DNA of 64,000 nucleotides, from IMG/VR virus record IMGVR_UViG_3300042806_000299, positions 1 to 64,000 of that record; one strand, written 5' to 3'. The DNA comes from a virus. The translations under genes were made by a program, and so were the position numbers. This document shows, one piece after another, positions 1,238 to 2,308 of the stretch (within the stretch, counting starts at the first letter, position 1; each line of letters opens with the position of its first letter). Below the pieces are notes generated by a model that was not told the DNA's origin, did no database searches, and worked only from the letters and a program-made list of their open reading frames with translations.

Positions 1238-1270
1238 GTGGCTGGCCACCTAGTGTGGGCTAAATCACAT

Positions 1271-1346: not shown

Positions 1347-1404
1347 GGTCACGAGCCTAGCGAATAAGCCTCAAGTAGAGGATGAGCCTAGCGAATAAGT
1401 GACC
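1347..1404 (+). ncRNA. Candidate structured RNA element 1
   Basis: Symmetric layout: outer stem GGTCAC (1347-1352) with GTGACC (1399-1404), two identical 15-16-nt copies of GAGCCTAGCGAATAA on the inner sides, and an apical hairpin CCTC-AAGTA-GAGG. It lies about 20 nt after the P1 start. A second element of the same layout but different stem sequence follows at 1495. No known RNA family recognised; the repeats could alternatively be DNA iterons. Confidence 0.45.
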
Positions 1405-1420
1405 TAAATCACATAGAAAA

Positions 1421-1463
1421 GACAGCGTGTCGCCTTGACTTTTCAGGGTATCTATGATAGGAT
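1421..1463 (+). promoter_or_regulatory. Promoter P2 with palindrome at its -35
   Basis: TTGACT (1435-1440), 17-bp spacer, TAGGAT (1458-1463) preceded by TGA. Immediately upstream is GACAGCGTGTC, a near-palindrome matching the P1 site in inverted orientation. P1 and P2 also share TTGACTTTT. P2 drives the leader and the genes from 1621. Confidence 0.65.
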
Positions 1464-1494
1464 ACTCCTATAACAATTAAATAGTAAGACAAAT

Positions 1495-1568
1495 CCTAGT
1501 GAGCCTCTGAGCCTACCAAATAAACCGCCTAGCGGGTGAGCGTAGCAAATAAGAGCAAATAACCTAGG
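1495..1568 (+). ncRNA. Candidate structured RNA element 2 (leader)
   Basis: Same layout as element 1: outer stem CCTAG (1495-1499) with CTAGG (1564-1568), inner copies GAGCCTACCAAATAA and GAGCGTAGCAAATAA, and a central hairpin CCGC-CTA-GCGG. The stems differ from element 1 but pairing is kept, which suggests selected structure. It lies in the P2 leader of the 1621 gene. Confidence 0.45.
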
Positions 1569-1579
1569 TCAGCAAAAAG

Positions 1580-1596
1580 GTTAGCAAATCGCTAAC
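1580..1596 (+). promoter_or_regulatory. Leader hairpin before the 71-residue gene
   Basis: GTTAGC-AAATC-GCTAAC, perfect 6-bp stem whose loop side again carries the AGCAAAT motif. It lies 24 nt before the ATG and just upstream of the AAAGG ribosome-binding site, so it could affect translation. Confidence 0.4.
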
Positions 1597-1620
1597 TAGA
1601 TTAAAAGAAAGGTAGTTAAA

Positions 1621-2259: not shown

Positions 2260-2267
2260 CAAGGTAG

Positions 2268-2308
2268 TAGTGGGTATGTAGAAATATGTGCTCACTATAT
2301 TTTTTGTT
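2268..2308 (+). terminator. Terminator of the first rightward operon
   Basis: Stem TAGTGGGTA (2268-2276) with TGCTCACTA (2289-2297), 9 bp including two G-T pairs, 12-nt loop, then a T-rich tract. It lies just after the 64-residue gene. Confidence 0.7.

Follow-up and report, generated by a model that had tools for sequence, protein, structure and literature searches.

The RAT RNA, which is bound by dimers of LicT or SacY, folds into a hairpin whose two internal loops, asymmetric and much alike, face the dimer, and in RAT/CAT antitermination it overlaps and competes with an intrinsic terminator; the nut site of phage lambda combines boxA with a hairpin, boxB, to which an N-type protein binds. 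According to PMC9378689, the put RNA of phage HK022 has two stem-loops of about 60-70 nt, is promoter-proximal in two operons, and binds RNA polymerase to suppress termination without a protein factor. Moreover manA and wcaG, according to PMC2864571, are phage-borne structured RNAs proposed to be cis-regulatory and linked to metabolic genes. The elements reported here are likewise a structured RNA domain carried by phages, with a proposed cis-regulatory role, but manA and wcaG are other families, and the element matches no Rfam family. They resemble put in their size, their promoter-proximal place and, if the analogy holds, their cis action from the leader; unlike put, by its description, the element is a single long hairpin in which one to three copies of the same internal loop break the helix. 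The pair of similar asymmetric loops in one hairpin also resembles RAT, whereas no terminator-like site overlaps positions 1347-1568 on the + strand of the window. The window, the whole stretch of DNA analysed, comprises positions 1 to 64,000 of an IMG/VR virus record of 72,878 bases.

As shown in Table 1, the window carries two such elements ahead of a short operon. What is repeated in them is an internal loop of unequal sides, 5'-UGAGC opposite CRAAUAA-3', closed beside its stem by a purine-purine pair (A.G or G.A) or by a standard pair. In element 1 the outer loop is slightly degenerate, C1352 replacing U and one closing base being absent. The 5' half of element 2 reads CCUAG, UGAGC, CUC, UGAGC, CUAC, CAAAUAA and hairpin, and its 3' half continues with UGAGC, GUAG, CAAAUAA, GAG, CAAAUAA and CUAGG.

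Table 1. Features of the locus; positions are counted from the first letter of the window
Feature	Position	Strand	Remarks
CRP/GlxR-like palindrome TGTGGGCTAAATCACA	1254..1269	.	1 mismatch of 10; centre 52 bp before P1 -10
Promoter P1	1291..1319	+	TTGACT-17-TATAAT, TG before -10, 11/12 matches; sigma-70-like
Element 1, double-loop structured RNA	1347..1404	+	covariance-model match 1346-1406, 71.1 bits
Element 1 outer stem, 5' strand GGUCA	1347..1351	+	pairs with UGACC 1400-1404
Element 1 outer loop, 5' strand (C)GAGC	1352..1356	+	opposite CGAAUAA 1392-1398
Element 1 central helix CUAG	1357..1360	+	pairs with CUAG 1388-1391; covaries (CUAC/GUAG, CUAAG/CUUAG, others)
Element 1 inner loop CGAAUAA	1361..1367	+	opposite UGAGC 1383-1387
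Element 1 apical hairpin CCUC-AAGUA-GAGG	1369..1381	+	
CRP/GlxR-like palindrome AGTGACCTAAATCACA	1398..1413	.	overlaps element 1 3' outer strand; centre 52 bp before P2 -10
Promoter P2	1435..1463	+	TTGACT-17-TAGGAT, TG before -10, 9/12 matches; sigma-70-like
Element 2, triple-loop stack	1495..1568	+	covariance-model match 1501-1560, 59.7 bits
Element 2 extra outer module	UGAGC 1500-1504 / CAAAUAA 1556-1562	+	helix CUC/GAG
Element 2 central helix CUAC	1513..1516	+	pairs with GUAG 1542-1545
Element 2 apical hairpin CCGC-CUA-GCGG	1525..1535	+	
Third hairpin GTTAGC-AAATC-GCTAAC	1579..1597	+	before ribosome-binding site; z -5.1
Shine-Dalgarno-like GAAAGG	1607..1612	+	by eye
First operon gene, 71 aa	1621..1836	+	ORF; downstream of both elements
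Intrinsic-terminator-like hairpin and T tract, end of short operon	2267..2298	+	
S-adenosylmethionine decarboxylase-like phage gene	2376-2765	-	PHROG 3125, E 5.1e-15; convergent with short operon

The initial annotation had noticed two structures of the same layout, with different stems yet kept pairing, and both the sequences and the comparison of relatives bear this out. Its outer stems, repeats and apical hairpins stand, but it had missed that the repeats pair with each other, through CUAG/CUAG in element 1 and CUAC/GUAG in element 2, and in the latter, whose stems are as described, a third loop (the outer module with helix CUC/GAG) had been overlooked. A promoter does lie ahead of each element, as it had proposed (P1, 11/12; P2, 9/12). 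As to the six or more AGC(G/A)AATAA-like motifs that it counted, four are exact (1359, 1390, 1544, 1554) and two are near matches by eye, ACCAAATAA (1515) and AGCAAATCG (1583); since the exact motif occurs 8 times over the full window, where 2.9 would be expected, the count by itself is modest evidence. When each element is folded alone, the outer stem, central helix and apical hairpin appear together. The folding energy by itself, with z values of -2.8 for element 1 and 0.16 for element 2, is weak evidence for these two, and the strong evidence is comparative. The third hairpin, also claimed initially, is confirmed by its z of -5.1 and by a sequence that varies with pairing kept: four differing, fully paired versions occur in 17 of 21 sequences, the other 4 of 21 being without it by strict pairing. 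Lying close to the ribosome-binding site, this hairpin may be an element of its own.

For the comparison, the 71-aa protein was used to find 24 loci without recourse to RNA letters, and the elements in them were then recognised by pattern. Four of the 24 were left out because their upstream sequence was too short, and the 21 sequences having at least 340 nt upstream of the gene (20 loci and the window) carry a double-loop element in 20 cases and a single-loop one in the remaining locus (L087). Moreover one 16-mer search gave 72 stretches, and a search in which the loop letters were fixed and the central ones left open gave at least 119; together these hold at least 162 distinct double-loop elements in at least 260 instances, some of which are one contig entered as two loci. 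Such counts are of sequences rather than independent events, and as the scans used loop letters, loop invariance is partly built in.

In A3, an alignment of 25 non-redundant elements, standard pairs make up 92.3% of the 349 cells and 58.6% when shuffled, 110 cells are changed on both sides against 32.1 in shuffles, and the covariation score is 0.717 against 0.146; when the partners are slid by 1-3 columns, pairing becomes far worse at every offset. The pairs with both-side change and the further pair types show no clear excess, their values being reached by 134 and 80 of 500 shuffles, respectively. A3 omits five short hairpins (TCC...GG or similar) with a one-base register shift, which are kept in A2 and later counts. 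All model matches give a similar outcome (A4, 79 distinct rows, 91.3%; A5, 97 distinct rows, 90.0%), both alignments being fitted to the covariance model and thus leaning towards it.

The central helix tells the same in individual elements. Among the matches listed, the distinct elements have CTAG/CTAG (123), CTAC/GTAG (21), CTAAG/CTTAG (9) or CTTAG/CTAAG (3), and more rarely CTAAT/ATTAG (2), CTAT/ATAG (2), CTAGG/CCTAG (1) or CTCG/CGAG (1), so that helix length also covaries, the variants of 4-5 bp staying paired. The central strands are self-complementary in 260 of the 260 phage instances among the matches listed, without exception; with a longer-spacer pattern three distinct matches of CTAG with CTAC spanned two adjacent elements and were excluded, and the shorter spacer gives none. 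By contrast, a cellular control with one genome per species (84,980 species) yielded 20 stretches with 27 loop-pattern matches, of which 0 of 27 are self-complementary. The stems are free, with 34 outer 4-mers and 19 apical arms in the 162 elements among the matches listed, while the loop letters barely vary. At the closing position X.Y of the inner loop, read in a fixed register among the matches listed, A.G is found in 61/162, G.A in 60/162 and T with G in 31/162, and for 35 elements among them, mostly with T at X, the better register has no Y; the outer loop is closed by A.G (95), G.A (23) or A.A (13) among the matches listed, the rest being mostly standard or wobble pairs.

The covariation suspected at the outset is thus seen as pairing-preserving changes in the outer, central and apical helices of relatives: the stems keep pairing rather than sequence, and no homologue among the matches listed has unpaired central strands. 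A covariance-model search across related phages, which the initial annotation had suggested, matched 18 of the 20 large contigs in one set and all 14 in another, with one or two matches each. Two contigs had none, one ending at the site (G007) and the other having the 16-mer standing alone (G019). In the window the model finds elements 1 and 2 only, and both are also in its seed. Taken together, the structured RNA is almost certainly real, and it forms a compact, very well supported family common to distantly related phage contigs.

Of 26 contigs, 18 have a counterpart of the window's DnaE, with an identity of 53-98%, or of 53-97% where the match is full-length. Of the isolated phages, Streptomyces phages in the Stanwilliamsviridae, Loccivirinae, come nearest, with 54% identity in DnaE and 40% in the major capsid protein; we infer an actinobacterial host. 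Five records of isolated relatives gave no acceptable model match: the match in Circinus, at 19.3 bits, lacks the loop motif and was dismissed as chance, and that in Comrade reaches 11 bits. A blastn search of 50,697 GenBank phage records with the element (E up to 10) returned nothing, and the same was true of the 71-aa protein. With Rfam 15 the whole window gave 0 matches at the gathering threshold and 11 relative loci gave only tRNAs, while the element region at E up to 10 gave one chance snoRNA match on the opposite strand. The letters of the loop motif, searched in open-access full text, led to unrelated papers only among the matches listed. An extensive catalogue of candidate structured RNAs in viruses, phages included, has reportedly been published, and the motif could be an entry in it. 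The elements make up an apparently new family of regulatory RNAs in phages related to the Streptomyces Loccivirinae.

Several observations bear on whether the conserved pairing acts in RNA or in DNA. Among the matches listed, 130 of 157 distinct elements have an upstream promoter on the same strand against 16 of 157 in the opposite direction, a placement comparable with that of put downstream of early promoters provided that the promoters here, as seems probable, are early ones. Of these 130, 106 are sigma-70-like and 24 of the TGTCAG type, and the end of the -10 box is mostly 20-48 nt from the element start (15 to 83 overall) among the matches listed. Among the 27 misses, several have a promoter that can be seen by eye, and a few are truly without one. 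Furthermore, the apical tetraloops among the matches listed are GNRA in 62 of 91 and reverse-complement GNRA in 0 of 91, and this confinement to the transcribed strand points to RNA. In the well-paired stems the wobble counts speak weakly for RNA: the outer helix has 14 G-T and 6 A-C cells, and the apical one has 1 G-T and 0 A-C in 452 cells. Apical wobble pairs are nevertheless rare (1/452), fewer than expected for an RNA helix, which is a point against a leader RNA. In the two model alignments the counts lean the other way, A-C and G-U cells numbering 28 vs 13 and 39 vs 20, partly owing to one mis-registered hairpin class. A leader peptide was considered and rejected as the main function: the first loop often starts with a start-like codon among the matches listed (ATG 100, GTG 35 and TTG 8 of 153), but the reading frame runs from 5 to 80 codons without conserved length and is broken by one-base helix insertions.

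The element is also modular. Besides the double-loop form, at least 22 distinct single-loop elements and at least 19 distinct triple-loop stacks were found; in 14 of the single-loop elements all 54 cells of the inner stem are paired (100%), and both-side changes number 19 against 6.3 shuffled. The site of element 2 is occupied in relatives by a triple stack or a single loop before the same gene. Double elements also stand in tandem (L058, L065), and elements about 1-1.7 kb apart, one per direction, in others (L006, L009, L011, L012, L032 and more), for example at 1474-1540 minus and 2880-2943 plus in L009, which is like the PL/PR layout. The suggestion of a new regulatory RNA pair is therefore right as to a new RNA, given the covariation, the promoter orientation, the GNRA loops and the absence from Rfam, but too narrow as to a pair, since single, double and triple loops occur alone, in tandem or divergently. 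The genes that follow are small ORFs, many and unlike, so the element is linked with expression and not with any single gene. A few copies have no promoter and lie after the stop of a small gene or between genes (L225, L019, L208, L213), and L236 has a single-loop intercistronic copy; such intercistronic copies point to a role at the level of the message. The element at 13051 of L027 has a T tract after its outer stem and may therefore double as an intrinsic terminator.

Many elements share their bases with a CRP/GlxR-like palindrome, TGTGA-N6-TCACA with up to 2 mismatches. Among the matches listed, 43 of 154 elements have it as their apical hairpin, and in 31 of 154 it lies across the 3' strand of the outer stem. 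From the palindrome centre to the start of the -10 box of an upstream promoter the commonest distance among the matches listed is 52 bp (57 of 125 site-promoter pairs), and for a downstream promoter 57 bp (19/48) and 52 bp (17/48), with lesser groups near 41-42, 60-63 and 71-72. These putative operators may be bound by a host CRP or GlxR protein. The apical covariation in palindrome-bearing elements could be due in part to the DNA palindrome; the other hairpins and the outer stems need no such palindrome. The overlap of element and operator offers a clean natural example of one run of bases carrying two codes. A further site of this kind, a perfect TGTGA-N6-TCACA, lies at 107-122 near the left end of the window.

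To account for these features, we favour a cis-acting leader whose loops would bind a trans-acting protein and control the messages of small genes after initiation, and to this mechanism as a whole we would give about an even chance. The nearly invariant loops would be the recognition surface, for a protein coded by phage or host; in the two-loop form identical loops face each other around a helix of 4-5 bp, and this two-fold symmetry would fit a homodimer. Once bound, the protein would govern how stable the downstream messages are, or their translation or elongation. Conserved loops, modular copies and unlike genes fit a recognition site for one factor common to many messages, and a stackable, two-fold symmetric loop predicts one binding unit per loop. 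Inspection by eye of the element contexts and the window showed no alternative pairing able to switch a terminator or ribosome-binding site, and as many elements are far from the start codon, simple ribosome occlusion does not fit all cases. A comparison of gene content gave small proteins that recur in element-bearing contigs and were not found in Streptomyces phage Circinus, one of them, of 49 aa, in 5 of 7 such contigs; all are weak candidates for the partner. The 49-aa protein is encoded at G006 1774 (minus), with relatives in G008, G030, G022 and G001, and gives the impression of a small beta-barrel. The loops offer a route to a new RNA-binding protein, or to an RNA acting on the host gene-expression machinery.

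The latter would be the case if, by analogy with HK022 put, the nascent element bound host RNA polymerase and resisted pausing or termination, which we hold to be unlikely. A size of about 60 nt directly after promoters, the unrelated genes that follow and the divergent operons each with its element, as putL and putR of HK022 (PMC9378689), speak for such an RNA, but the operon in the window is short and ends at a strong terminator-like hairpin facing an opposite-strand gene, so that readthrough there would give antisense RNA only, and some copies are intercistronic. Terminator-like hairpins occur within 3 kb downstream in 57/98 cases, about as often as after random positions (74/122). A bolder version, in which a modular RNA alone would reprogram the actinobacterial polymerase in divergent leaders, with loop number setting the strength and the bases doubling as a CRP-type operator, is distinctly unlikely. 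An aptamer binding a ligand like a riboswitch, in one to three stacked copies, would explain nearly invariant internal loops within variable helices and the tandem copies; it is made improbable by downstream genes that are many and unlike, by the apparent lack (by eye) of a terminator or anti-Shine-Dalgarno alternative beside the element, although a switch acting on translation may have gone unseen, and by an occurrence only in phage contigs, 0 of 27 cellular pattern matches being structured. Similarly improbable is a passive 5' stabiliser shielding phage messages from nucleases with no specific partner: the hairpins are near the expected 5' end in most copies, but passive protection does not need invariant loop letters.

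The two other readings proposed initially fare worse. Repeated identical loops could titrate a protein, as a trans-acting sponge or small RNA would, but large contigs have only one or two model matches, no terminator-like site follows element 1 on the + strand before the gene, and the elements run into genes, the inspected copies being joined to them; a sponge is very improbable. Just as remote is an element acting as DNA, whether as iterons or as a hairpin extruded from DNA. The CRP-like operators inside many elements and the DnaA-box-like words upstream would agree with it, but the stems keep pairing and not sequence, the orientation follows the promoter and GNRA is on one strand only; iterons in particular are not supported by the central strands, self-complementary in the phage loci among the matches listed and in none of the 27 cellular direct repeats sharing their letters.

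Some further features of the locus may be mentioned. The 71-aa product belongs to no PHROGs family and has no Pfam match above cut-off, and its structure is predicted with low confidence (pLDDT 56.9). Upstream of P1, at 134-142, 1187-1195 and 1229-1237, the DnaA-box-like word TTATCCACA occurs three times without mismatch, in this form or as its complement, and such words are also seen before some relatives; a replication origin may lie nearby. A repeated word like GACACGCCG / CGGCGTGTC is found at 153-161, 1273-1281 and 1425-1434, and adjoins many element promoters across the relatives' loci too. Finally, the -10 region together with the bases behind it makes up a short inverted repeat at 1314-1328 (TATAAT-TCC-ATTATA) and at 1457-1471 (ATAGGA-TAC-TCCTAT), possibly an operator.
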